From Notolepis coatsorum (Eukaryota > Chordata > Actinopteri > Aulopiformes > Paralepididae): 64,000 nucleotides of DNA. Shown one piece after another: positions 3,414 through 64,000 of this stretch (within the stretch, counting starts at the first letter, position 1; the number at the start of each line of letters is the position of its first letter). The position numbers and the translations under genes were made by a program. The DNA lies in the NCBI GenBank assembly GCA_963971535.1, contig OZ020593.1, positions 17,177,919 to 17,241,918 of the forward strand, in the 5' to 3' direction. Below the pieces are notes generated by a model. That model saw only the letters and a list, made by a program, of their open reading frames with translations. It did not search any database and was not told the origin of the DNA.

Positions 3414-3965
3414 AACGAACCAGCAACCAGCGAGGCGGCTACCAGGGGGGCGGTGGCTACCATTTGGGGGGCGGTGCCTACCATTTGGGGGGCGGTGGTG
3501 GAAGCGGGGGCTGAAGCTATCGTAGCGGCTACCAGGGGCGCGGTGGCTACCATTTGGGGGGCGGTGGTGGAAGCGGGGGCTGAAGCTATCGTAGCGGCTA
3601 CCAGGGGCGCGGTGGCTACCATTTGGGGGGCGGTGGTGGAAGCGGGGGCTGAAGCTATCGTAGCGGCTACCAGGGGCGCGGTGGCTACCATTTGGGGGGC
3701 GGTGGTGGAAGCGGGGGCTGAAGCTATCGTAGCGGCTACCAGGGGCGCGGTGGCTACCATTTTGGGGGCGGTGGTGGAAGCGGGGGCTGAAGCTATCGTA
3801 GCGGCTACCAGGGGCGCGGTGGCTACCATTTGGGGGGCGGTGGTGGAAGCGGGGGCTGAAGCTATCGTAGCGGCTACCAGGGGCGCGGTGGCTACCATTT
3901 GCGGGGCGGTGGTGGAAGCAGTGGTGGAAGCTATCGTGGCGTGGTGGCGGCGGCTGTGGCTGTAA
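3414..3965 (+). CDS. Exon-like unit, copy 3, expanded by 69-bp repeats
   Basis: The third copy of the unit begins near 3217. It has the same pyrimidine tract and a CAG acceptor at 3411-3413, then a 183-codon frame starting NEPA and ending AWWRRLWL before TAA. The middle has been expanded by a 23-residue repeat (core ATIWGAVVEAGAEAIVAATR). The frame matches copies 1 and 2 at both ends, which supports real coding, or at least descent from one exon. A Gly/Tyr/Ser-rich reading also exists in another frame but has a TGA in every repeat. No known family is recognised. Confidence 0.4.
   Translation, partial: NEPATSEAATRGAVATIWGAVPTIWGAVVEAGAEAIVAATRGAVATIWGAVVEAGAEAIVAATRGAVATIWGAVVEAGAEAIVAATRGAVATIWGAVVEAGAEAIVAATRGAVATILGAVVEAGAEAIVAATRGAVATIWGAVVEAGAEAIVAATRGAVATICGAVVEAVVEAIVAWWRRLWL
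3517..3930. repeat. 69-bp GC-rich minisatellite, about six copies
   Basis: The unit begins GCGGCTACCAGGGGCGCGGT and repeats every 69 bp with very few differences. It is a multiple of three, so copy-number changes keep the surrounding frame open. Confidence 0.95.
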
Positions 3966-5818: not shown

Positions 5819-6115
5819 ATGGCGGGGTACTAACTATAGTAATATTGTTTATTTGCATTGGGAAAGATAGACACATTAGCTGGCTGAACAACATCTATTG
5901 AAAGATAGAGAGAAAACGAGAGAGAAAGAAAGAAAGAGCTGTACTGTATTGTACTGTATACCCATTCTGCAATATGTTAATAAAATATACACTGATATAA
6001 GCCTACTGGTTGCTGTTCAATCATAATAATAATCATAATTAGCTGCCAGGAAACAAATAAAACGTTTGTCATTATAGGTGACAAGGTGGATTGACTTAAT
6101 GACTGCTATATCCTG

Positions 6116-8066: not shown

Positions 8067-8498
8067 TTCAGGCCACTGAACTTAGAAGCAGGCCAGGCCA
8101 GTGTTTCTAGTTGCGGCGGCGCGATAGTTAGATAACCTAAGTGGGGAACAACCAGGAGATCACTGTGACAGAGAGTAAGGGCCCGCGTCCACTTGGCGCA
8201 TATTTATGGCCGCAAGCGTCTTTTTTCAATGTATTCCAATGGGGAGGGAGCGTCGCCTACAGCAAGTGCGCTGCCGTCGGCTTTTTTTTCACCGCCTTTC
8301 AGCTTTTCTATGCGGCCGCACAAGTTCCTAGAAAGTTGAAACCAGTTGAACTTTCCAGAGCGGTGCGCTGAGCACAGCTGAGCGCATATTCAGACAACCA
8401 ATCACAACAGTGGCGCCAACTGTAGGGCTCGCGACACATGTAATCTTGTAACCTGAGACACCGGCGGGGGACCTCACTTCACCTCACCCGACATCAAT

Positions 8499-9246
8499 AT
8501 GGAGGAGATGTTGATTTTGGCTGTCTCCACCTACCCAGAGCTATACGATATGTCCGATAAACATTATCATAATAAAGACAGGAAAGCCCGTTTGTGGGAC
8601 CAGATTGGCAGGACCATGAATGTTGCTGGTGAGTTATTTTTTTTTATATCATCCACTGTACAAAACTATATCTGACGTCGTTATATTGTTAGCATATCAT
8701 TAGCTAGCAATGTCAATCTTTTACATAATGTCATTATTTAATAATAATAATTGTCTGCTATCTGATTATAGGTGATCGTTGCCAATCAAAGTGGAAATAC
8801 TTGAGGGACAAATATAGGAAGGATAGAAGGGCTGAGAAAGAGAAGAAGAGTGGAGCAGAAGCTGGAGGAAAAAAAAGATGGAAGTATTTGAGCATCCTGA
8901 GTTTTTTAGAGCCACACATGAAGGACAGGGAGACCAGCAGTAATTTCAGGGAGATGGAGAGCCAGCAGACTGTGGACTCCTTGCTCGCCTCCATGTCTCC
9001 ATCACATATGTCACAGGTAATAATTGGGCCTGATCACTTCAGTGCAAGCAGGGAGTAGGAGATGAAGGTTGCTGTGGAATATTCCAATGAGCCAAACAGT
9101 GAAGCTGTAGGAATTCAGATCGAGTCAATTTGTATAAAAATATAGAACATAGTTTATTTCTGTTTCCATGCCCACAGAAAAGTGCTCAGTTCATCATCAG
9201 AGACACACCAGCGTCTGACCAGAATGTCATATCTCCTCAACCTTGG

Positions 9247-9313
<67 letters not shown>

Positions 9314-10313
9314 CTAGTCAAAAGCTGTACAGAGATTTAACACAGATGGACATAGATAACATTTCCAGTCACAAGGTTTTGTTTACATAAATGGCAAACT
9401 ATATATATATATATATAGCTTTGGCATTTTGTGGAAAACTGGAAAAAGTGGAAACTTAATTTTCATTTATCTCCAAAACTGAAATATTCTGTCGTCTGTC
9501 ACCCAGATGACCCAAGGTTTGAGCAGTGAGGAGGAGGAGGAGGGCCCTGGTCCATCCACAACACTGCCCCGCTCTGCACCACCAGCGGAGATAGCTGCTC
9601 CACCTGCTGCACAGAGGGAGGTCCCTGGCACCTCCATCATCCGTCGGGGACATAGCGGCTCTGCACCACCAGCGGAGATAGCTGCTCCACCTGCTGCACA
9701 GAGGGAGGTCCCTGGCACCTCCATCATCCGCCGGGGACATAGCGGCTCTGCACCACCAGCGGAGATAGCTGCTCCACCTGCTGCACAGAGGGAGGTCCCT
9801 GGCACCTCCATCATCCGTCGGGGACATAGCGGCTCTGCACCACCAGCGGAGATAGCTGCTCCACCTGCTGCACAGAGGGAGGTCCCTGGCACCTCCATCA
9901 TCCGCCGGGGACATAGCGGCTCTGCACCACCAGCGGAGATAGCTGCTCCACCTGCTGCACAGAGGGAGGTCCCTGGCACCTCCATCATCCGCCGGGGACA
10001 TAGCGGCTCTGCACCACCAGCGGAGATAGCTGCTCCACCTGCTGCACAGAGGGATGTCCCTGGCACCGCCATCATCCGCCGGGGACATAACCGCAGGGCT
10101 CCTCCACCACCACCACCCGCGGCCCCCCTGACTACCTACCAACAGGAACTGATGGGTGTAATCAGAAATGTCCCAGTCCCGGTCAACAGCAACGAAAATT
10201 TTTTATTGAGCCTGCTGCCAGCGCTGGACTCACTTGACGGTGAAAAGAATTCACTTGTCAGAATGAAGATCCAGCTTGTTTTGCACGGGGCTCAGTTTCC
10301 AGTAGAGTTGTAG
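8499..10313 (+). CDS. MADF-BESS (Myb/SANT-like) Harbinger accessory protein
   Basis: Exon 1 is 8499-8628 (start ATG, MEEMLILAVSTYPELYD). Exon 2 is 8772-9016. The last exon is 9507-10313, beginning MTQGLSSEEEEE. Exons 1 and 2 join in phase 1 to give a MADF-type DNA-binding domain with the expected WDQIGRTM and CQSKWKYLRDKYRK motifs. A short exon near 9178-9225 (KSAQFIIRDTPASDQ) is possible, but a (TA)n tract has expanded at its end. The last exon has six tandem 29-residue Pro/Ala-rich repeats and then a BESS-like motif (ENFLLSLLPALDSL) near the C-terminus. In Harbinger systems the Myb-like partner brings the transposase to the nucleus and the transposon ends. Poly(A) signals follow. Confidence 0.85.
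9248..9310. repeat. (TA)n microsatellite
   Basis: About thirty TA units directly after a possible small exon of the MADF gene. They would lie at its donor site (GCTGTATATA) and may have altered splicing. Confidence 0.95.
9569..10090 (+). repeat. 87-bp coding minisatellite, six copies
   Basis: Six tandem copies of an 87-bp unit within the last MADF-BESS exon, each encoding SAPPAEIAAPPAAQREVPGT plus IIRRGHSG-type residues. Copies differ by only a few bases (for example CGT or CGC in RR), so the expansion or homogenisation is recent. The length preserves the frame. Confidence 0.95.
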
Positions 10314-10325
10314 GTTCTTTGTTTT

Positions 10326-10486
10326 ATTGTAATCAGTTCAATTGTTTTTATGTTTAATTGTTTTTAATGATTTAATTTAATTGTAATCAGTTCAATTGTT
10401 TTTATGTTTAATTGTTTTTAATGATTTAATTTAATTGTAATCAGTTTAATTTACCTGTGCCTTTGATGATCTGTAAATAAAATAAA
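10326..10486 (+). promoter_or_regulatory. 3' UTR duplication and tandem poly(A) signals
   Basis: A roughly 53-bp AT-rich unit (AATTGTAATCAGTTCAATTG onward) is duplicated at about 10326-10432. AATAAA lies at 10476-10481 and again at 10481-10486. These are the expected cleavage signals for the MADF-BESS transcript. Confidence 0.7.
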
Positions 10487-10735
10487 TATGCACTGTTCTA
10501 ATAATCAATTCAATGTCTAAATGTATCTGTGCCCATATTGTAATATGTATATATGCATTGGTCAAAGTTTAATCTTGATTTGCATCGTAATAGCCAAAAC
10601 ATTATGCTAGTTATGAATAACATTTATACAAAATTGTTGGTAATAAATAGTTATTGTAGTCACCCTCCAACCATTTTGGATACAAGGACAATCTTGTTTG
10701 AGCATCATGGGAACAACTCTCAACACAAAGTGGGT

Positions 10736-10751
10736 GGCTCTGAAAAGAGCC
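10736..10751 (-). terminator. Histone-type 3' stem-loop, distal copy
   Basis: On the minus strand the RNA reads GGCUCUUUUCAGAGCC: a 6-bp stem with a UUUC loop. It is preceded by CCAAA and followed by ACCCA, exactly the vertebrate replication-dependent histone 3' element bound by SLBP. It lies 57 nt past the transposase stop, sense to that gene. No histone ORF exists in the window. A purine run (GAGAG) follows about 16 nt after the stem and could weakly resemble a histone downstream element. Confidence 0.8.
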
Positions 10752-10758
10752 TTTGGGT

Positions 10759-10774
10759 GGCTCTGAAAAGAGCC
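10759..10774 (-). terminator. Histone-type 3' stem-loop, proximal copy
   Basis: This is identical to the distal copy and 23 bp upstream of it on the minus strand. It begins 34 nt after the transposase TGA (10809-10811), a distance normal for histone mRNAs. The flanks are CCAAA and ACCCA. The two copies form a perfect 23-bp tandem repeat. Confidence 0.8.
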
Positions 10775-10992
10775 TTTGGGTGAATACGGAGGTAGGAGTA
10801 GGAGGTCCTCAGATGATTTCATTCTGCCATGGCACCTGTCCTGCTGCTGAGAAGTACCCAGTGAAGGTTTCCCTGACAGTAATGGCCTCTCTGGTGGCGT
10901 TGTTGCTTCCCATCCTTCTGAGGGCCTGGGCACCAAGGAGTGGCTCTGCTGGCACCGCGGGAGGCAGCGCTGGCACAGATCCATCGTCCCAC

Positions 10993-11115
10993 CTGATTGA
11001 TTGATTGAAAACATTATTAATTGCAGAATGGGTACAATACAGTACAGCTCAATACAAACAACTGTTGGGATGAAAGACTTTCATCTTGTTTACATCAGGG
11101 TCCCCCATTTTCAAT
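10993..11115 (-). repeat. Intron-located retroposon-like repeat, intron 5 copy
   Basis: On the minus strand this holds the shared core (GGGGGACCCTGATGTAAACA, then TGTATTGAGCTGTACTGTAT, then CCCATTCTGCAAT). It ends in a (CAAT)n tail followed directly by the AG acceptor of exon 6. It is 5'-truncated relative to the intron 4 copy. Confidence 0.85.
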
Positions 11116-11124
11116 TCATGCAAC

Positions 11125-11216
11125 CTCTGGAGACACACCCAGTACCCTCCTATACAGTCTCCACTGAGCCCTCTGGAGACACACCCAGTACCCTCCTATA
11201 CAGTCTCCACTGAGCC
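11125..11216 (-). repeat. 46-bp tandem duplication in transposase exon 5
   Basis: CTCTGGAGACACACCCAGTA starts at 11125 and again at 11171. The 46-bp period shifts the reading frame after LYRRVLGVSPE and produces an early stop. Confidence 0.9.
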
Positions 11217-11264
11217 GCCATGATGCCAAAAGAGCACTCCACCATTCTTCTGGCGTGGGAAAGC

Positions 11265-11540
11265 CTGAATGAATTAATGACAACTTTATTTAACAGATTG
11301 CAGAATGGGTACAATACAGTACGGCTCAATACACACAATTGTTAACCCTTTTCACTGCCACACGACAGCAGGTTAACCCTTTCACTGCCACACTACAGAA
11401 GGTTAACCCTCGGTTGTGTTATAGTAAAGGGTTAACCTTCTGTAGTGTGGCAGTGAAAGGGTTAAGGGGCTGCAGACCAGAGAACAACGTTTGTCTTGTT
11501 TACATCAGGGTCCCCCATTTTTTATTCATTGTGACATTTA
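11265..11540 (-). repeat. Intron-located repeat, intron 4 copy, split by a MITE
   Basis: The minus strand carries the longest sense copy, from about CATGTATGTCCCTATG to the ATTCATTCAG acceptor of exon 5. It is interrupted at a TTAA (between CCCC and CAATTG) by the small MITE at 11342-11465. The matching uninterrupted sequence is present at 12132-12141. Confidence 0.85.
11342..11465. mobile_element. Small TTAA MITE with CCCTTTCACTGCCACAC ends
   Basis: TTAA at 11342-11345 and 11462-11465 flanks inverted ends beginning CCCTTTTCACTGCCACAC. An internal TTAACCC at 11373 begins a second full inverted pair, so the element is partly duplicated or self-nested. A shorter relative lies at 19521-19602. 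No coding capacity; piggyBac-type target. Confidence 0.85.
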
Positions 11541-12084
11541 TGGCATAGGGACATACATGACATACAGGTATATAGTACCTGTAGTTAAAGACCCTCTTCT
11601 CTCCCTCCGTTCGCCCTGCGTAGGGCCTCATCATGTGCCTTCGCAGAGGGAAGGCCTCATCTGCCACAAAGAGATGGGGGACGGGGCCCAGGTCCTCTGC
11701 GCCTGGGAGAGGGGTGTCCTCTGGCAGGTCCAATGTCCCTTCGCGTAGGGCCCTGCCGAATACGGAGGCAGACAGCGTTCCCCCATCGCTGCTTCTCCCA
11801 TATGCTCCCACATCGACCATGCGGAAGCGGTAGTGGGCATCCACTATGGCGAGGAGAACGATGGAGAAGGTTCCCTTATAGTTGAAATACAGGGAACCGC
11901 TGCAAGGTGGGGCTTGGACTATGACGTGCTTCCCATCAACTGCACCTATAAAACAACACACAATAAAAAATTCACAATTATGCCACAACAATGTGGAACG
12001 CCGGCCCTACCCACAGCCGTAAAAAGATGTGAATCCCTACCCATGTATGTCCCTATGTCATAAATGTCATTATGAATTACAAAT

Positions 12085-12216
12085 ATGGGGACCCTGATGT
12101 AAACAAGACAAACGTTTTCTCTGGTCTGCAGCCCCTTAACAATTGTGTGTATTGAGCCGTACTGTATTGTACCCATTCTGCAATCTGTTAAATAAAGTTT
12201 TCATTCATTCATTCAC
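12085..12216 (+). repeat. Intron-located repeat, intron 3 copy (antisense to gene)
   Basis: Plus-strand copy containing GACCCTGATGTAAACAAGAC, CCCCTTAACAATTGTGTGTA, TGTACCCATTCTGCAATCTG and a TTAAATAAAG motif. It ends in (ATTC)n followed by AC, whose complement is the GTGAATGAATG donor of intron 3. Confidence 0.85.
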
Positions 12217-12524
12217 CTAGGCAGTTTGGGAAAGCCCAGAGGGAACTGTAATCTTGAGCTATTTTCTGCCAGTCTTCTTTCTTGGGCACAGGCATGTAGT
12301 CCTGTAGAAGACAGCTCCAGATGGCGGTACACACGTCCCTGACGATACGTCCCACTGTACAGTTCCCCACTCTATAGCTGAATGCTATGGTCCTGTAGGA
12401 GTCACCAGTGGCAAGGAACCTAGAATGTGAGACAAATGTTATAAAATATTTTCAGTATACAACTTATTATTATTATTATTATTATTACCCCCGTAGTTGA
12501 ATAGGGTGTGGACACTGCAGCTCA

Positions 12525-12602
12525 AAAAGTCTTTCTCTGGTCTGCATCCCCTTAACAATTGTGTGTATTGAGCTGTAACGTTTTCAATCAATCAATCAAA
12601 CT
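12525..12602 (+). repeat. Intron-located repeat, intron 2 copy (antisense to gene)
   Basis: A plus-strand copy with an internal deletion. TCTCTGGTCTGCATCCCCTT runs through CAATTGTGTGTATTGAGCTG to a (CAAT)n tail. On the gene strand the tail begins within about 6 nt of the GTGAGT donor of intron 2. Confidence 0.8.
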
Positions 12603-12685
12603 CACCGCAGACAGATGCACAGACGCTCTGCAGGGCCGATCGTCTCCCTCAACTTCGTCTGGGATCTAGCGATGGTATCGCCAAC

Positions 12686-12740
12686 CTTGAATGAATGAAT
12701 GAAAACGTTATTAACAGATTGCAGAATGGGATATAGACTG
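12686..12740 (-). repeat. Intron-located repeat, intron 1 copy (3' fragment)
   Basis: On the minus strand CCCATTCTGCAATCTGTTAA leads into (CATT)n and then CAAG, the acceptor of exon 2. Only the 3' 45-50 bp of the repeat is present. Upstream is a separate short duplication (GATATAGACTGATAACAGGT at 12730 and 12760). Confidence 0.75.
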
Positions 12741-13054
12741 ATAACAGGTAGTTACTGTAGGGATATAGACTGATAACAGGTAGTAGTTACTGACATACAA
12801 GAGATCATAAAAAAATATATACATCCGAAGGGGAAGAAAATTTACATGGGTGGACATTTACCTTCTGGAGGAGCAGCTCAAATTGGCATTTTGTTAGCCT
12901 GAAATACGCCTGGAACCGGGCTCCATCGAACTGGAGCTCTTGGATGAGACGATGGTACTCCCCATATTGTTGTCTCCGGCGAATGGTGTCGTGTATCCAG
13001 ATTCTCCCCTCCTTGCTCTATGACCGTCTGGCACGGTGACAGCAGCAGGAACAT

Positions 13055-13461
13055 AATTTTAGGACCTGCTCCGAGGTCATCAATTGGCACACATGCGATG
13101 CATGCATGCAATTCGTATCTGCGATTAACCCATCCTGTCGTCCTTCCCCCCCAAGGGCAGCCGGGAGCAGACAGGCGTCAACGTGAGCCGCGCCAGGGGA
13201 CCAATCCAAGTGCTCCTGTCCGTCTTCGTCAAGGACGCCACAGCGTTAGCGATCTTGTTGTTGTGCATGTTTTTCCATTGGGTTTATCTTATCGGGGGGG
13301 AAACCCTTGCGAGCACGGGGAGAACATGCAAACTCCACACAGAAAGGCCTGGGAGATACCCCACCTGGGTAACTGGCATCATGGAAACCTGGTCCCCAAG
13401 CGGGAATCGAACCCTGGACCTTCTTGCTGTTAACCACTACACCACCGTGCCGCACATCGTT
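13055..13461 (-). mobile_element. tRNA-derived SINE inserted in transposase exon 1
   Basis: The minus strand begins with a tRNA-like head, with a box A-like GTGTAGTGGTTA and box B-like GGTTCGATTCC. The common fish SINE body (GCCTTTCTGTGTGGAGTTTG) follows. The copy is flanked by the 14-bp direct repeat AGCAGCAGGAACAT at 13041-13054 and 13462-13475. That is a clean target duplication showing insertion into transposase coding sequence. Confidence 0.9.
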
Positions 13462-13800
13462 AGCAGCAGGAACATCGTTAAATGTATCCAGCAGAAGTAT
13501 GAGAGCAATTTGCCTCTGCTGGTTGGTGGTCAGACTCATCGCGATTCGCAAAGAAGCACCCACGAATACACTAATAATAATAATAAAAACCGCGACAGTA
13601 AAATACGATAAAAGTTATTATTCCAAGATGGCTGTCATGTAGGTTGTCTCTCGTCTCGCTGCGTTTTTTTTCTCACCGCATGCGCCCCGCCCCTGCTCGC
13701 GTTTTTTTCTCACCGCATGCATGCGCCCCGCCCCATTCTACCGGGCGCACTCCCAGCATGTTTCAGCTAGAAATATGCGCCAAGTGGACGCGGGCCCTAA

Positions 13801-31312: not shown

Positions 31313-31639
31313 TGGTATCCGGCCAAAATCTGCCCTGTATATATTTGTTGCCATTTGTAGGGTATATGAGTTGAAGCAGACTGGTTGCAATCCAGGATGA
31401 TCAACCATGCACGAAACTGCCTCGGGCTCTTGATTGATTCTTCTCCTGACCTATAGAAAACAAAATACAGTTAGCCATATGCATGGTTTTCAGTGCTACC
31501 CAGATGCAAGGTTGTGTGACATTGCTACTGTACCTGAGGAACCTCCATGCAGCAGACATTCTCCACCTCGGTCGGCATTCGTCCACACTTCCCACAGGTA
31601 CACCTAGTAGATTGATTTGAGGGTGAAGGAAATCAATCT

Positions 31640-31770
31640 ATCAATGATCAAAATGGCTACAATACAGTACTGCTCAATACACACAACTGCTTGAGGATGC
31701 TAGGATGGAGACCAGGAAAAGACTTTCGTCTTGTTTACATCAGGGTCCCCCATTTTCAATTCATTATAAC
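31640..31770 (-). repeat. Intron-located repeat, copy in the P2X7/integrase relic
   Basis: Minus-strand copy of the repeat found in the Harbinger introns: GGGGGACCCTGATGTAAACA, then TTGTGTGTATTGAGCAGTAC, then a TTGATAGATTGATT tail. It lies in the first intron of the relic, sense to it, with the tail about 25-35 nt before the acceptor. Confidence 0.75.
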
Positions 31771-32254
31771 ATATGATCTACAGTTAGGGTGACATGACAT
31801 GGTGTCCCACTTTTGATTATACTGCAATTATACTGCACAGCCAATTGACCTAGGATGCATGTACCCGAATAAAGTAACGTTATAGCAAGCTATCGAGTGA
31901 GTCAGAAGTAAGTACTAACGTTACTGTTAACTTTACTTTATACTAATGTTACTATATAAATTTGCAGGGGGACATTAGGTCAAATGGCTGTGCAGTACAA
32001 CCAAAAGTAACGTTATAGCAAGCTATCGAAGCAAGCTAGTCAGAAGTAAGTACTAACGTTACTGGCTCTTTTCGGCCAGCCATTAGACTAACATTACAAT
32101 ATAAACGTACCACTCAAACGATTTGCAAGCCTCGCTGTTGCAACTCAACTTCTTCTTCCGAAACATAGTCTGGGTCGCTCTCTGGATCCCAAATATACGG
32201 TACCGGTACAGCCATCTTGTTTACTATAAACTGTTTTCAATTCACCTGGAAGGA

Positions 32255-43800: not shown

Positions 43801-44355
43801 TGGTGGTTGAGGGACGTAGTTCAGGCGTGGGAATTGTCCATGGACAGATGAGGGTTGTGGGAATTGTCCATGGACAGATGAGGGTTGTGATGCAGGACTG
43901 GGGCGTCCAAGCAGGCCCCCCGGGAACGGGAAGGGTGGGAGGGATGCAGCACCGGCGGGGAGAGGTAGGGGAAAGGGGACACAGGGAACAGGACCTGTGG
44001 GAGGTAGGGGAAAGGGGACACAGGGAACAGGACCCCGTGGGAATCGGGCCGGGGGAAGGGGGTCGACGAGGGAGGCGAGGAGGGCTGGAGCAGGGGGGGG
44101 TAGAGACGATGGGCTAGGAGTGGGACCTGGGGCTGGGATCTCCTCAGTGGCGAGACCCGCCGCCGAACCCCGAACCGGAGGCTCCCCGACGGCAGGACCC
44201 GGCACAGGACCCGGTGCAGGACCCCCAACTGGGGTCCCTCCGGCAATAGGGTCCGGCGTCGCTCTCCGGGCAGACAACACTCCGGTGACGTGGCCCCGAA
44301 GATAGTCCCATAGAGAGGGATCGTCTCCCGAAACCTCCCAGGGAGGAGACCCTGA
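43800..44355 (-). other. GC-rich, Pro/Gly-biased open stretch
   Basis: Several overlapping frames are open because of low-complexity GC-rich DNA. Two short duplications are present: GGAATTGTCCATGGACAGAT (43830 and 43860) and a GGTAGGGGAAAGGGGACACA repeat (about 43965 and 44004). The minus-strand frame following the RECQL piece cannot be assigned to a gene. Confidence 0.3.
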
Positions 44356-44359
44356 CCAG

Positions 44360-44785
44360 GGCGGCAGGTGTCACACATCTGGTTGCATCCCTCGTCATCC
44401 CAGACCTCATCAAAGTGAACGGCCATGAGAGACCTCCGACACCTGTCGACGTTTTGGCAGTAGTCAACCATTTGCTGACGCTTCTTCTGGCCTCCATCAC
44501 TACCATGGTGCTGATCCTGAAGATATCGGCAAAACCAAAGTAGACAATGCAGTCTGCTGGTCCGTCATCTCTGCCTGCTCGCCCGCTCTCCTGGTAATAG
44601 TTCTCTATGGACTTGCTGATGGTGTGATGGATGACGAACTTGACGTCCAGCTTGTCGATGCCCATTCCGAATGCCACCGTAGCCACCACCACCTGGATCT
44701 TGTTGTTGGTCCACTTGCGGTGAATCCGGGACTTGTCGTCGGGGTCCATGTTACCGTGTTTTACTGACGCACCTGCTCCTCTGCT
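44360..44785 (-). pseudogene. recql: Processed pseudogene fragment of RECQL helicase
   Basis: The minus strand encodes, without introns, the end of helicase domain 2 and the start of the zinc-binding region of RecQ1. Motifs are [20 protein letters not shown] (motif V region), [18 protein letters not shown] (motif VI with the QxxGRxGRD signature), [14 protein letters not shown], then after a frameshift [20 protein letters not shown] and CNQMCDTC. Helicase RECQL unwinds DNA with 3'-5' polarity. In vertebrates this region spans several exons, so contiguity points to an mRNA copy. It is truncated on both sides. Confidence 0.8.
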
Positions 44786-44789
44786 CTCA

Positions 44790-46860
44790 ATCAATCAATC
44801 AAATCCTTTATTTAACCAGATAAGCATCATTGAGATTAAAATCTCTTTTTCAAGAGCGATCTGGCCAAGCAAGGCAGTAGAAAGTTTCAACATAAAAAAG
44901 AGAACATCACAATAAAATACAGATAAAACATTTACAGCAAGCTCCAATTTCAGGCAAGTTATCAAACAGGCAAATTATCAAACACAGTTGCACTGTCCGA
45001 GGGAACTGAGTTCGTAGGATTTTAAAATGGCTTTGAATTCTCCGAGGGTGACCAGTCCTGGTAATTTTAGGTCCTCCTGTATCTTGTTCCAAGATGAAGG
45101 AGCAGCATATTTAAAAGCCCTTTTTCCCAATTCAGTTCTCATATGGGGAACTTCCAGTGTTAGAGCAGCTTGAGAATGAAGGGCATACTTATATTGCTTT
45201 GTGCACAGAAGCACACTTAGGTACGAGGGAACCAGTTTAAGCAGAGCTTTGTGCACAAGAGAGAGCCATCGAGAAAATCGCCATATTTGTAGAGATGGGT
45301 AACTTGCAATGGTATATAGGGTGCAATGGTGCACTCGATTTCCACATCCTGTGACAAAGCGTAAGGCAGAATGGTACACAGTATCAAGCTTTCTAAGGTA
45401 CTGATCAGGTGCATACATGTAGAGTAAGTCACCATAATCGAGTAGTGGTAAGAAGGTGGTCGAGATCAGGTGACTTCTCACTTTAAGTGAAAAACAGGAT
45501 CTGTTTCTGAAAAAGAAGCAGAGTTTAAGCTTCAGCTTTGACACAAGTTTGTCTATGTGAGATTTAAACGTAAGGTTCTCGTCCACTGTAATGAGATTTA
45601 AACGTACAGTAAGGTTCTCGTCCATAGTAATGCCTAGATATTTGTACGAAGCAACCCTTTCGATGTCAGTCCCTCCAGCAGTAAGTGTGGGAAGATCAGC
45701 TGGGAGTCTCTTCCCATTTGAGAAGAGCATACACTTTGATTTGCCAGCATTTAACACTAGCTTAAGCTGGGTAAGATGTGACTGAACAATGTCAAAGGCA
45801 GATTGTAAGAACTCCATCGTTTGCACAACACTGGGAGATGAGCAATACATTACTGTGTCATCAGCATAGAAATGGTAAGCAGCATTAGACAGGTTGATAC
45901 AAAGATAATTTACATATATGGAGAACAGTAGAGGTCCCAGTACGGAACCTTGTGGTACACCCTTAAGTACAGGGAGGAAAGATGATGATAAACTAGCAGA
46001 CTGTACACGCTGTGATCTACCCGTCAGGTAATTTGAAAACCACTCTACAGCCTGTCTAGATAAACCAGTTTTATGTAGACACTTCGATAAAATGGCATGG
46101 TCAACCGTATCAAAGGCTTTGGATAAGTCTAGGAACAGAGCTGCACAGTATTTATTGGAATCCAGTGATTCAATGACATCATTGACTACTTTAAGAGTAG
46201 CAGTGATCGCGCTGTGCTTCTTTCTGAAACCTGACTGGTTCTTGGAAAGCAGGCCATGTGAGTCTAAGAAATCTTTTAGCTGCTCACTTATTAGTTTCTC
46301 AATGACTTTGGCTAAAACACACAACTTTGAGATTGGTCTGTAATTGTTAAGGGATGAGGGATCACCCCCTTTCAACAGGGGGAGGACGTGGGCAGATTTC
46401 CAGACTAATGCAATCTCATTGCTTTCGATGGTGAGATAAAAAATGTAAGTTAAAGGTTCTGCAATAAAATCAGCAGCTGCCTTGAGAAAATGAGGCTCCA
46501 ACTTATCCGGACCTGCAGATTTGTCTGAGTTGAGCTTCTTTAGGGCCCTATGGACCTCAACCACCTCAAAAGGAGATCAATTGAAGGGTTCAGTTTCTGA
46601 GTTTGAGGGGGGTGACATAAGGGGCCCCTGATGTTCAGAGTCTGATGGCTGTAGTGACTCAAACAAGGATCCTGATGAAATAAAATGTTGTTAAAAGAAT
46701 TAAGAATGGTTAATTTATCAGTCACAGTACAGGACTCAGTTTCTATGCTGAGTGGCAATTCATTTGTGATGTCACTCCCATAAGTGGTCTTGATAACCTT
46801 CCAAAATGCTCTGCACTTACCAGCGTAAAAGCAGTGGCTCAGCAAGCAAAATATATTCAC
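44790..46860 (-). mobile_element. CR1/Jockey-superfamily LINE with long RT frame
   Basis: The minus-strand frame 46564-44978 encodes 528 residues. It has successive RT motifs NNYRPISKLCVLAKVIEKLI, FRKKHSAITATL, LFLDLSKAFDTVDHAIL, GVPQGSVLGPLLFSIYVN and the catalytic YADDTVMYC, then the thumb and a long C-terminal region. Upstream sequence in another frame (about 46860-46570; KCRAFWKVIKTTYG, ELPLSIETESCTVTDKL) is the pre-RT region, offset by a frameshift. A 12-codon duplication (DENLT twice) lies near 45570-45630. The 3' end is AATAAAGGATTTGATTGATT with a TTGA tail at about 44790-44805. No endonuclease domain remains. Confidence 0.85.
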
Positions 46861-56960: not shown

Positions 56961-58168
56961 GTTAGTTTTCATACTGTATAGTGTATATGAAGAATGCCTG
57001 TTCATCAGACCTTTTTCTTTATGCGGATGACTCAGCCATTCTGGTCTCCCATAAGGACTTGGCAGTAGTGGAGAGGACCCTTAGTGAGGAGCTATCAAAT
57101 GTGCAGACATGGCTGTCAGATAACAAACTATCTCTTCATCTAGGAAAAACAGAGGCCATCCTGTTCGGATCAAAGAAATGGCTTGGTAAAGAAATTGAAA
57201 TGAAGGTAAGAGTAGGTGAGAAGCAAATAACAAACAAGGATTCTGTAGTATATCTAGGCTGCATACTGGACAAACATCTTACAGGAGAGGCCATGGCTAA
57301 AAAAGCCCACACTAAAATCTGCCAGAAAACGAAATTCATAGCTAGACAAGGGAAACTACTGGACCAGGCAACACTTAAAATGCTAGCGGGCGCATTAGTA
57401 CAGAGTCACTTTGACTATGCTGCCACCTCCTGGTTTAGTGGCACTCCACAGGTCCTGAAAAACAAACTTCAGACAGCTCAAAACAAATTAATGAGAGTAG
57501 TCCTTAAACTACCTCCACGTACTCACCTAGGGCCAACTTTCTTTAGGCAACTAAACTGGCTTCCGGTCAATAAAAGGGTAATTCACATAAAATTAGGTCT
57601 CACACACAAGATAGTTCAAAATACAGGTCCGAAATATCTATCTAATTATTTTAATCGATTCCGTGACAATCATTCATACTCCACTAGAAGGAGCAGTACG
57701 GATTTTATTCTGCCAAAATGTAACTCCCTAATGGGCACAAATACTTTTTTATATTCTGCAGCACTGGAGTGGAACAAGCTTCCAGTGGCCCTGAAAAACA
57801 TCGAAGAGGGGGGAGGTTTTAGACGTGCCACAAAGAAATGGCTAGCCAGTGAAGTATAGAATAGCCATAGGAAGGAGAGGGTAGGGAGTGTTTTTTTTGT
57901 ATGGGGTTGCTATTATGTTTTATTCTCTGTTTTTTATTATGATGATCTATGTTTTATTATGATGCTCTATGTTTTATTATGATGCTCTATGTTTTATTAT
58001 GACGCTCTGTTTTAGTATGTTTTATTATGATGCTCTATGTTTTATGATGTCTGTCCATGTCCAAAATCAGGGACCATGATGGAAATAAGTGCTTGCACTT
58101 TCTCATGTTTTTATCCCTTGGATGCTGTCTTTTACTCCACAATAAAAATCAATCAATCAATCAATCAT
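56960..58168 (+). mobile_element. Jockey/CR1-superfamily LINE, 3' half
   Basis: The frame 56981-57859 begins just before the catalytic motif (SDLFLYADDSAILVSHKDL). It continues through the RT thumb (WLSDNKLSLHLGKTEAILFG, VVYLGCILDKHLTGE) to a complete C-terminus (LEWNKLPVALKNIEEGGGFR). It is open throughout and could be a recent copy. The 3' UTR has a roughly 21-bp repeat (TTTTATTATGATGCTCTATG) at 57940-58045 and ends AATAAAAATCAATCAATCAA at 58140-58168. The 5' part, including the endonuclease, is missing. Confidence 0.85.
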
Positions 58169-60816: not shown

Positions 60817-60948
60817 CACACACATACAGCAAACAAACCGCTACACATATAAAACAGCTGTAAAACAAGTGACATCCACCTCTAGTTCAGCATCAATCAC
60901 CTATAAGGAAAATATATCTTTACATCAATACATAGAGCATTTCTTGGT

Positions 60949-61678
60949 GAACTAGTTAGTGTGTACTAGTTACCGGAGGAGCTGGTAGAACTAGTTTGGA
61001 GCATTTCTTGGTGAACTAGTTAGTGTGTACTAGTTACCGGAGGAGCTGGTAGAACTAGTTTGGAGTGTTTCTTGGTGATCTAGTTAGTGTTTACTAGTTA
61101 CCTGAGGAGCTGGTAGAACTAGTTTGGAGTGTTTCTTGGTGATCTAGTTAGTGTGTACTAGTTACCTGAGGAGCTGGTAGAACTAGTTTGGAGTGTTTCT
61201 TGGTGATCTAGTTAGTGTTTACTAGTTACCTGAGGAGCTGGTAGAACTAGTTTGGAGTGTTTCTTGGTGATCTAGTTAGTGTTTACTAGTTACCGGAGGA
61301 GCTGGTAGAACTAGTTTGGAGTGTTTCTTGGTGATCTAGTTAGTGTTTACTAGTTACCTGAGGAGCTGGTAGAACTAGTTTGGAGTGTTTCTTGGTGATC
61401 TAGTTAGTGTTTACTAGTTACCTGAGGAGCTGGTAGAACTAGTTTGGAGTGTTTCTTGGTGATCTAGTTAGTGTTTACTACCTGAGGAGCTGGTAGAACT
61501 AGTTTGGAGTGTTTCTTGGTGATCTAGTTAGTGTTTACTAGTTACCTGAGGAGCTGGTAGAACTAGTTTGGAGTGTTTCTTGGTGATCTAGTTAGTGTTT
61601 ACTAGTTACCTGAGGAGCTGGTAGAACTAGTTTGGAGTGTTTCTTGGTGATCTAGTTAGTGTTTACTAGTTACCGGAG
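60949..61678. repeat. 64-bp minisatellite, array 1
   Basis: The unit runs GTTTGGAGTGTTTCTTGGTG to GAGCTGGTAGAACTA, 64 bp, in about 11 copies. Variants are ACCTGAGG/ACCGGAGG and a 10-bp deletion (TACTACCTGAGG). Units contain ACTAGTT palindromic steps. Confidence 0.95.
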
Positions 61679-63023
61679 GAGGTTTCAGGTTTCAGGTTTT
61701 TATTTAGACTCCACAACATATACAGATCATTACTCCAGCATACATTGCTGTCAAGGATAGTAACGTAAAAGCCTCTTGACTTATTTCCATCGTTGTCCTT
61801 GGGTGTCAAGGATGCTAGAAACACACAACTCATTACAGAATTAATCACAATTATTATCTTTGCATAATAATAATGGCACAACCCTAAATTAATACAAAAC
61901 AAAGCACATTTGTTGTTACAATGTTCATTTATGTCGAAAGTCAGTGAGCTTCAGGAAGCACCCTCGGGGGAGGGAATTTGGGGGATGGGAGGGAGGGCGG
62001 AGAGTGGGGGGTGGGAGTTAAGGATAGGGTAGTGGCTTAGGGTTTGGGCGTGTGAGGCAGTCGAGGGATCCACCCCTCCTTCCGTGCACGTCGCCAGTCG
62101 TGCTCGTGGGGGGGGAGGTTTGCGTGAGGATGGGGAGGGGGGGAGGCCATCCATCTTATCTTCAGACAGTCAGATACTGTCCCGTCCTTGGTTGCGATGG
62201 GTACGGATGTCATAAACCAGGTCTTATCTTGACTTCTTCTCCTCGGCCTCTTGCATTGACCTCGAACATTCCTTCTTTTCTTCCACAGACTTGAGTTTCG
62301 TGGCGGGGGGGGGGGGGGGGGGTGGGTTGCATCAGGTTACAATGATTCCTGTAATGCTTTAATTTAATCCAGATCTTGCATCTTCTTTGTCGCGGTCCTA
62401 ATGTCCTGCGCGACCCCCAACATTATTTGACCCCTACATTGTTCATCGGCTGTATGTTGAGCGAGCCGCTTTGTCAGTTCAATGTGGGCATTTTCCAATC
62501 TTGCTACTACTTGACGGCAGCAAATCCAAATCCAAATTGCGATCGCTCCCCAACCGATCAGGAAGATGACGAGGAGATACAGATCCTCAACATCTTCAAT
62601 CTCAATAGAATATAGGCATATTGATCGCCAATTATTCCAACTGTCAATTGCAAACCCGGCCTGGAATGTCCCTATCGGACATAATGGTTCGGTCGCACTT
62701 TGTTTTCTTGAAGAGAAGATTCGATCCACTGCTGCAAAACTCCAGCTTACTAGTTGATCCATTGATTGACTGAGTGGGAAGTCAGGTATATTGAAGAAAA
62801 AGTAGAATGTCCACACCGTCAAGGAGGCAGATGTAAGGCAGTTGTAATTAGGGATCCACACCGTTATTAATTGCAGCTTAGAGTCCACACCGTCGAGAGA
62901 AGCAGAAAGACAGCGCTGGTGTACGGAGATAAAAGCGGCTGCAGGGAGGAGGGTAGAGGAGGCCTTGGAGGGCAGGGAGGAGAGATAAAAAATGCGACTG
63001 CTCTCTGGGGAGGTTAGAAAGGA
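61679..63023. repeat. Unique segment between the minisatellite arrays
   Basis: Begins GGTTTCAGGTTTCAGGTTTT, which starts again at 63856-63858 after array 2. It holds a GC-rich GGGGAGGG tract (61960-62150), a G run at 62304-62321 and the minus-strand frame described separately. Confidence 0.85.
62364..62762 (-). CDS. Putative single-pass membrane protein, unrecognised
   Basis: A 132-codon frame from MDQLVSWSFAAVDRIF to VAQDIRTATKKMQDLD. The frame is open further upstream, but this ATG starts the non-repetitive part. There is a strong hydrophobic segment near residues 73-93 (LYLLVIFLIGWGAIAIWIWI) followed by CC and an Arg/Lys-rich, coiled-like C-terminus. The N-terminal side has no clear signal peptide. 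It sits inside the 2.18-kb tandem segment. It could be a small gene, an accessory frame of a mobile element, or chance. No family recognised. Confidence 0.35.
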   Translation of the reverse strand: MDQLVSWSFAAVDRIFSSRKQSATEPLCPIGTFQAGFAIDSWNNWRSICLYSIEIEDVEDLYLLVIFLIGWGAIAIWIWICCRQVVARLENAHIELTKRLAQHTADEQCRGQIMLGVAQDIRTATKKMQDLD

Positions 63024-63855
63024 TCTGGTAGAGGAGCTGGTAGAACTAGTTTGGAGTGTTTCTTGGTGATCTAGTTAGTGTTTACTAGTTACCTGAGGAG
63101 CTGGTAGAACTAGTTTGGAGTGTTTCTTGGTGATCTAGTTAGTGTTTACTAGTTACCTGAGGAGCTGGTAGAACTAGTTTGGAGTGTTTCTTGGTGATCT
63201 AGTTAGTGTTTACTAGTTACCGGAGGAGCTGGTAGAACTAGTTTGGAGTGTTTCTTGGTGATCTAGTTAGTGTGTACTAGTTACCTGAGGAGCTGGTAGA
63301 ACTAGTTTGGAGTGTTTCTTGGTGATCTAGTTAGTGTTTACTAGTTACCTGAGGAGCTGGTAGAACTAGTTTGGAGTGTTTCTTGGTGATCTAGTTAGTG
63401 TTTACTAGTTACCGGAGGAGCTGGTAGAACTAGTTTGGAGTGTTTCTTGGTGATCTAGTTAGTGTTTACTAGTTACCTGAGGAGCTGGTAGAACTAGTTT
63501 GGAGTGTTTCTTGGTGATCTAGTTAGTGTTTACTAGTTACCTGAGGAGCTGGTAGAACTAGTTTGGAGTGTTTCTTGGTGATCTAGTTAGTGTTTACTAC
63601 CTGAGGAGCTGGTAGAACTAGTTTGGAGTGTTTCTTGGTGATCTAGTTAGTGTTTACTACCTGAGGAGCTGGTAGAACTAGTTTGGAGTGTTTCTTGGTG
63701 ATCTAGTTAGTGTTTACTAGTTACCTGAGGAGCTGGTAGAACTAGTTTGGAGTGTTTCTTGGTGATCTAGTTAGTGTTTACTAGTTACCTGAGGAGCTGG
63801 TAGAACTAGTTTGGAGTGTTTCTTGGTGATCTAGTTAGTGTTTACTAGTTACCGG
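63024..63855. repeat. 64-bp minisatellite, array 2
   Basis: Same unit as array 1, about 13 copies, with the same variant types including the 10-bp deletion units near 63598 and 63658. Confidence 0.95.
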
Positions 63856-64000
63856 AGGTTTCAGGTTTCAGGTTTTTATTTAGACTCCACAACATATACA
63901 GATCATTACTCCAGCATACATTGCTGTCAAGGATAGTAACGTAAAAGCCTCTTGACTTATTTCCATCGTTGTCCTTGGGTGTCAAGGATGCTAGAAACAC
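63856..64000. repeat. Start of second copy of the 2.18-kb segment
   Basis: About 143 bp essentially identical to 61678-61822, offset 2,178 bp, running off the window end. A higher-order tandem repeat is implied. Confidence 0.9.

Follow-up and report, generated by a model that had tools for sequence, protein, structure and literature searches.

The 64-kb stretch of the Notolepis coatsorum genome analysed here (contig OZ020593.1; hereafter the window) carries a Harbinger DNA transposon whose transposase gene, on the minus strand, contains five introns. Each of these introns includes a copy of one repeat with a tetranucleotide tail lying 0-6 nt from a splice site, an arrangement first noticed in a reading made from the DNA letters alone (the sequence-only reading) and confirmed here. 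Introns 1, 3, 4, and 5 are very probably 5'-truncated copies of one abundant long interspersed nuclear element (LINE) that landed in exons and have since been removed by splicing. We attribute these four to the LINE because their positions are empty in other Harbingers and because the best-kept copies consist almost entirely of LINE sequence, and we regard the insertions as having become introns because paralogs share them with GT-AG ends and complete frames exist only after splicing. Intron 2 is, judging from its presence in other Harbinger families, an older intron that the LINE entered later. The earlier proposal that a retroposon made introns in either orientation within a transposon gene is thus retained for introns 1, 3, 4, and 5 but not for intron 2.

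A profile hidden Markov model built from the repeat copies recognises seven matches with E below 1e-6 in the window, five of which lie within the 1.9-kb transposase stretch. The spliced reconstruction agrees with the orientations initially described: sense copies in introns 1, 4, and 5, with the tail running into the AG acceptor, and antisense copies in introns 2 and 3, with the tail beginning 6 nt inside the donor in the former and directly at the donor in the latter. The new introns therefore include both orientations, three sense and one antisense. Of the two sequence blocks said to be common to the copies, both are complete in introns 3 and 4, whereas intron 5 has them with an altered or absent end, GACCCTGATGTAAACAAGAC is lacking from intron 1, and neither block occurs in intron 2. 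The LINE share of each intron was scored solely against LINE copies outside the transposon. It amounts to 314/314 nt in intron 4 (counting a nested palindromic repeat at ~11346-11460), 246/271 in intron 3, where the inner part 11971-12043 matches the end of the LINE open reading frame (ORF), 164/170 and 179/180 in two paralogous versions of intron 5 (L005 and L029, respectively), 98/176 in the window form of intron 1 and 91/95 in its 95-nt form in locus L012, and 102/186 in intron 2. LINE sequence reaches within 0-6 nt of both ends in introns 1 (L012), 4, and 5, and to 0 and 25 nt from the ends of intron 3; in the long intron 1 of the window and in intron 2 it does not extend to both splice boundaries as it does in introners. 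By eye, the intron 4 donor, GTACTATATACCTG, can be aligned with the LINE sequence GTACTAAATACCTG, and that of intron 1, GTAAATGTCC, resembles the LINE at its ORF stop codon. Exon borders at the four new introns are AAG/G, TAG/G, CAG/G, and GAG/G (slash, splice junction). Intron 5, also called an intron in the sequence-only reading, is clean in paralogs (LHNFMR/WDDG; GAG/GTAGGC ... CAATCAG/GTGGG), but the window copy has lost its donor together with the end of exon 5 in a single deletion; the donor is gone at one more place as well (L014, L026).

These features suggest a route from insertion to intron. Each LINE copy would have been inserted by target-primed reverse transcription at an AG/G site with a short target duplication. 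In sense orientation, a tail ending in ...ATTCA followed by the target G would read as a CAG acceptor; in antisense orientation, the target G followed by TGAATG would read as a GTGAAT donor, and the (ATTC)n/(AATC)n tail would thus provide one splice site whichever way the copy lies. The second site would come from the truncated 5' side of the LINE or from the target, as may be the case for the sense donors GTAAAT and GTACTA and for the U-rich TTTTATAG acceptor of the antisense copy. Transposon copies with spliceable insertions would have kept transposase production and amplified, and the Harbinger family probably survived the LINE insertions because they could be removed from its mRNA. Intron 2, by contrast, is of older origin, and a LINE inserted beside its donor.

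Homology identifies the repeat as the 3' end of a very abundant LINE, in keeping with its original description as a 5'-truncated, retroposon-like sequence: genomic copies have varied 5' ends, a common AATAAA..(ATTC/AATC)n 3' end, and reverse transcriptase homology upstream. The coding region upstream of the repeat in locus L019 is 44.5% identical over 164 aa (E 8.6e-42) to a reverse transcriptase ORF of the window (56966-57859), itself trailed by an (AATC)n tail. In a young LINE subfamily, twelve copies have near-identical 3' ends and mostly different 3' flanks; two of them (L074 and L081) share both flanks and therefore appear to represent a single insertion carried along within a larger repeat. 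Two LINE queries returned 3405 and 1583 first-look, unconfirmed candidate places in the 3.42-Gb genome (40 scored per query), so that the family appears to be large, and six arbitrary 6-kb stretches (36 kb in total) contained one copy. Neither the repeat nor the transposase was found in the viral and prokaryote contig collections scanned.

Copies elsewhere bear on whether this capacity extends beyond the transposase gene. It is conceivable, though we consider it unlikely, that the LINE tail acts as a two-way splice-site cassette (sense CAG acceptor, antisense GTGAAT donor) turning exonic insertions into introns, wherever the LINE is abundant, in any expressed gene of transposon or host; such introns would then appear earliest in transposon genes, given the rapid selection and amplification of their copies. 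It is also improbable that the LINE is a dedicated introner operating genome-wide, host genes included, a reading compatible with the origin that we favour for the transposase introns. Four independent introns in one gene and in both orientations speak for it, as does another, diverged copy that ends at the predicted acceptor of a P2X7-like exon and is possibly a further LINE-derived 3' splice site (31602-31790; the P2X7-like label is presumed from the motif CxCGxC..MPT..E..CC, unconfirmed by Pfam). Against it, the family is large, with one copy present in 36 kb of arbitrarily chosen sequence, and outside this transposon family the few copies inspected mostly do not lie at splice-like sequence. 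Flanks were judged by eye and without annotation, for 12 copies of one subfamily and the single copy in 36 kb, and in these small samples no obvious splice-site setting is seen. A non-Harbinger LINE copy (L060) also shows TTCAG at its tail. The sequence-only reading had named the lack of a genome-wide splice-site bias as an argument against itself; none is visible in these samples, and since the few copies read are not generally found at splice-like sequence, the notion of a specialised intron-creating family lacks support. The term "introner-like" fits the transposase gene, where the LINE reaches the cut-off of at least four introns per family used in the 2022 introner survey (PMC9860276, in the sections drawn on here), all within one transposon gene.

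To date the introns we relied on the Harbinger families of the same genome, because RNA-derived contigs are possible among metagenomic ORFs. A whole-genome protein search, queried with the stretch that begins at the end of intron 3 and spans exons 4 and 5, gave at least ~150 matches. Among the matches listed, the 40 best (92-99% identical, window included) all stop at residue 144-146, that is, at the end of exon 4, and ~83 (hand count) run through position 4 into exon 5, none of them above 75% identity. Fourteen Harbinger loci were retrieved and mapped onto the Synaphobranchus kaupii protein as reference; several (L051-L055) belong to one family and they are therefore not 14 independent witnesses. 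Positions 3, 4, and 5 are each uninterrupted in 12/14 loci. L051 is unbroken over residues 1-102 of the reference, which include position 1, and over residues 117-351, which include positions 3, 4, and 5; intron 2 lies between these two segments, and another break occurs beyond residue 351. In L058, residues 23-102 and 102-403 are unbroken. Position 1 is cleanly covered by L051, L058, and L062, and with a gap of a few nt by L064, and has no intron in any of them. An example of an empty site is AACTGCCTTGGTGCTATT in other Harbingers versus AACTGCCTAG/GTGCAGTT in the window. The exceptions are L054, without the position-3 site; L059, which ends before position 5; L056, related to the intron-bearing family at 84%, where the tail of the intron-3 LINE sits at the same donor and part of the intron-4 LINE is found 2 kb past exon 4; and L064, broken at position 4 (~1833-2212) by a different LINE-like repeat that lies in antisense and has a (GATA)n tail. 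This last insertion has a 5-nt duplication (AACTA) and no GT-AG, and the copy has stops; it is a natural case of a non-spliceable hit.

Position 2 behaves differently. An intron is present there in L051 (GAG/GTGAGTAGC) and L058 (GAG/GTGAGTCAT), both with the donor GTGAGT, and the acceptor is found at the same place in L057, L060, and L061. LINE sequence covers 0/186 nt of the L058 intron and 454/1151 nt of the L051 one, in the latter no nearer than ~120 nt to a splice site. Introns at the same places but free of the repeat in related Harbingers, which would have spoken against introns made by the repeat, were accordingly encountered for intron 2 only (L058). A protein search with the N-terminal part turned up no relatives that stop at intron 1 or 2. 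Positions 1, 3, 4, and 5 are unbroken in Harbingers 72-75% identical and more distant and position 2 is not, so that introns 1, 3, 4, and 5 are gains and intron 2 is an older feature. That all five introns are old and that an abundant LINE entered near their splice sites, by chance or target preference, is true for intron 2, where metagenomic ORFs (P0077, P0087, P0161, P0166, P0229, and P0236) also begin in intron-like sequence just before R-Y/F-L (RYLATGD) and where the L051 intron has LINE copies well inside it. Extended to introns 1, 3, 4, and 5, this explanation becomes very improbable: it would need independent loss of the same four introns by the other families in which those positions are exonic, and it sits poorly with LINE sequence lying so close to both ends (intron 1 in L012, introns 4 and 5) or to one end (intron 3).

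The splicing of the insertions was assessed in 20 loci, the window copy and 19 paralogs, with sites counted where both ends were readable. GT-AG borders are found in 12/12 cases for intron 1, 16/16 for intron 2, 16/16 for intron 3, 12/13 for intron 4 (one GA), and 9/9 for intron 5. The reading frame is kept and stop-free in 9/12 cases for exon 1, 15/15 for exon 2, 18/18 for exon 3, 13/15 for exon 4, 12/13 for exon 5, and 9/9 for exon 6; exons 2, 3, and 6 hold it in 42/42 full cases despite variable intron lengths (91-183 nt for intron 1, 270-312 for intron 3, and 305-407 for intron 4). In the window, excising introns 1 to 4 at the coordinates given in Table 1 yields an open frame collinear with its homologs, with GT-AG every time. 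All six exons are present in four loci; three of these (L012, L013, and L028) encode an unbroken protein of 416-419 aa once the five introns are removed, and the fourth (L008) has an early stop. Ratios of nonsynonymous to synonymous differences (pN/pS) against the window are 0.12-0.39 in 22/25 rows, with three rows (L025, L033, and L035) coinciding in location with L015, L012, and L013, respectively. A slower divergence of introns than of synonymous sites was considered and dropped after CpG sites were removed. The probability that the LINE copies are dead exon insertions in a defunct transposon, with accidental GT-AG borders and no splicing, appears slight, for although the window copy is indeed defunct, duplications around AG/GT would yield such borders by construction, and L064 carries a non-spliceable LINE insertion in a decayed relative, many paralogs have the same insertions with conserved splice sites and most complete copies retain full frames across six exons.

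Several observations weigh against a LINE origin of the four introns and their removal by splicing. Splicing itself is deduced from the conservation of frame and splice sites, and the three intact copies all belong to one subfamily. Loci L004, L007, and L008 have pN/pS of 0.6, 0.9, and 1.8, based on just 3, 4, and 7 changes, and introns have diverged to about the same low extent as pN, which leaves the signal of selection equivocal; the case therefore rests on frame and splice-site conservation. No LINE match covers the last 25 nt of intron 3 or 78 nt of intron 1 in the window, and in the 95-nt form of L012, intron 1 matches the LINE at just 74-78% identity over its 5' half. Possible target duplications at the four introns are just 4-6 nt long (AAGGT, TAGGTG, CAGG, and AGGT), overlap the AG/GT consensus, and are inseparable from it, and clear target duplications could not be defined in 10 genomic LINE copies. 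AG directly follows the tail in 3/12 copies of the young subfamily, all of them within (GA)n repeats and two sharing both flanks. Finally, L062 (a 47% relative) has an intron ~four codons beyond position 2, so that position 2 is not universal.

The host element (8179-13797) is a complete Harbinger DNA transposon, with a DDE_Tnp_4 transposase, perfect terminal inverted repeats (TIRs), and a 3-bp TAA target duplication on both flanks (Table 1). The nearest proteins to the transposase are from teleost fish, namely Synaphobranchus kaupii (74% over 99%) and Epinephelus moara (87% over 75%). The window's own copy is dead: exon 1 is split by an insertion resembling a short interspersed nuclear element (SINE), exon 5 carries a 46-bp duplication, and the intron-5 donor is lost. 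The exon 1 insertion is missing from the paralogs covering this exon, which join 13054 to ~13454-13462. Similar Harbinger fragments are concentrated on one contig of the genome (C27, ~5.4-10.5 Mb), which holds 17/30 loci from the protein search in 5 Mb (L030, L032, L034, L036-L041, and L043-L050); those inspected contain exons 3-4 and part of intron 4, as if amplified within a larger local duplication.

Table 1. Coordinates of the Harbinger element, its transposase gene, and related LINE features in the window
Feature	Position	Strand	Description
TIRs	8179-8205 and 13771-13797	+ and -	Perfect 27-nt inverted termini, GGGCCCGCGTCCACTTGGCGCATATTT
Partner gene open frame	9483..10313	+	BESS motif (PF02944), 87-bp tandem repeats
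Histone 3' untranslated region (UTR) stem-loop (RF00032)	10712..10776	-	AAAGGCTCTTTTCAGAGCCACCCA, tandem pair, ~34 nt past the transposase stop
Exon 6	10809..10992	-	Runs to the stop codon
Intron 5 remnant	10993..11124	-	New; sense LINE copy, tail CAATCAATCAATCAG into acceptor; donor deleted in the window
Exon 5	11125..11264	-	46-bp tandem duplication (~11124-11216); 3' end lost in the window copy
Intron 4	11265..11578	-	New; sense LINE copy, tail ATTAATTCATTCAG into acceptor
Exon 4	11579..11945	-	Most of the DDE_Tnp_4 domain (PF13359)
Intron 3	11946..12216	-	New; antisense LINE copy, tail GTGAATGAATG starts at donor, forming GTGAATG
Exon 3	12217..12419	-	Spliced-frame reconstruction
Intron 2	12420..12605	-	Older position; antisense LINE copy directly after the GTGAGT donor, GTGAGT/TTGATTGATTG
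Exon 2	12606..12685	-	Spliced-frame reconstruction
Intron 1	12686..12861	-	New; sense LINE copy, tail TTCATTCATTCAAG into acceptor
Exon 1	12862..13539	-	Split in the window copy by a SINE-like insertion (~13055-13453)
Short further LINE copy	5931..5998	+	Without tetranucleotide tail; at no recognised splice site
Further LINE 3' end copy	31602..31790	-	Diverged; decayed AATC tail reaches predicted TAG acceptor of P2X7-like exon CTCGKCGRMPTEVENVCC
Reverse transcriptase ORF of a relative of the intron-supplying LINE	56966..57859	+	RVT_1 E 3.3e-05, 24.1 bits, below the Pfam cut-off of 29.6

Downstream of the transposase stop codon, the histone-type stem-loop scores 40-43 bits against the Rfam cut-off of 34 and usually occurs as a tandem pair across loci. 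It is above cut-off in 7/8 intron-bearing loci scanned and in 0/10 loci of other Harbinger families. Downstream of it lies GAGAGAGTTGTT, which resembles a histone downstream element. The transposase mRNA may thus undergo histone-type, S-phase-linked 3' end formation. Histone genes with this type of 3' end formation are, however, not known to have introns.

Elsewhere in the window, another LINE (44144-46576, minus strand; reverse transcriptase ORF 44978-46576) has a (TTGA)n tail abutting a helicase coding fragment (Helicase_C) near 44.8 kb, presumably RECQL-like. The junction may represent a chimeric retrocopy or a LINE inserted in a retro-pseudogene; we set it aside as a second intron case since the fragment looks like a retrocopy rather than an intron-containing gene. 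The window also contains two long minisatellite arrays with a 64-bp unit (60940-61681 and 63031-63858, ~12 and 13 copies, respectively) and two others with 83-bp and 69-bp units (1820-2159 and 3466-3941, respectively).

Vertebrates are considered to gain introns only rarely, and the mechanism of such gains is for the most part unknown. In the transposase gene described here, four coding introns appear traceable to one LINE family, in both orientations and with relatives lacking these introns available as controls within the same genome, so that young introns would have been caught soon after birth in a vertebrate. This raises the questions of how a retroposon inserted in an exon can be spliceable from the outset and of whether simple-repeat LINE tails generally supply splice sites. 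A literature search, with subscription journals mostly outside its scope, retrieved no report of LINE-made coding introns in vertebrates. The host itself resembles known PIF/Harbinger elements in its DDE_Tnp_4 transposase, separate partner gene, TIRs, and 3-bp TAA duplication, and differs from them in its four extra introns and in the histone-type stem-loop after the transposase stop. The closest parallel for the introns is with introners, which Gozashti et al. 2022 searched for by similarity reaching the splice boundaries and for which they describe both element-carried and co-opted splice sites (PMC9860276). As in that survey, transposon copies fill whole introns at sites empty in relatives, with one splice site borne by the element and the other co-opted; in contrast, the source here would be a LINE, insertions work in either orientation, and the effect is shown for a single transposon gene, whereas the sections of the survey drawn on here report most introners as consistent with DNA transposition and no evidence for a pattern of gain in vertebrates (PMC9860276). 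Introns 3 and 5 of the notothenioid slc26a2 gene are likewise recent transposon-derived coding introns in a teleost, with GT-AG sites located in the direct and inverted repeats; according to the portions of the report used here, the creator of intron 3, NTE-1, is DNA transposon-like, with inverted repeats and 4-nt direct repeats (PMC12357937), whereas in the Harbinger transposase a LINE with a tetranucleotide tail probably made four introns in one gene. The SINE intron of rice catalase A and the human Alu introns in 3' UTRs share with our case the passage from exonic retroposon insertion to intron; they comprise, in the parts of the source consulted, one coding case in rice and four 3' UTR cases in separate human genes (PMC2394776), compared with what are most likely four coding introns in a single gene family here.

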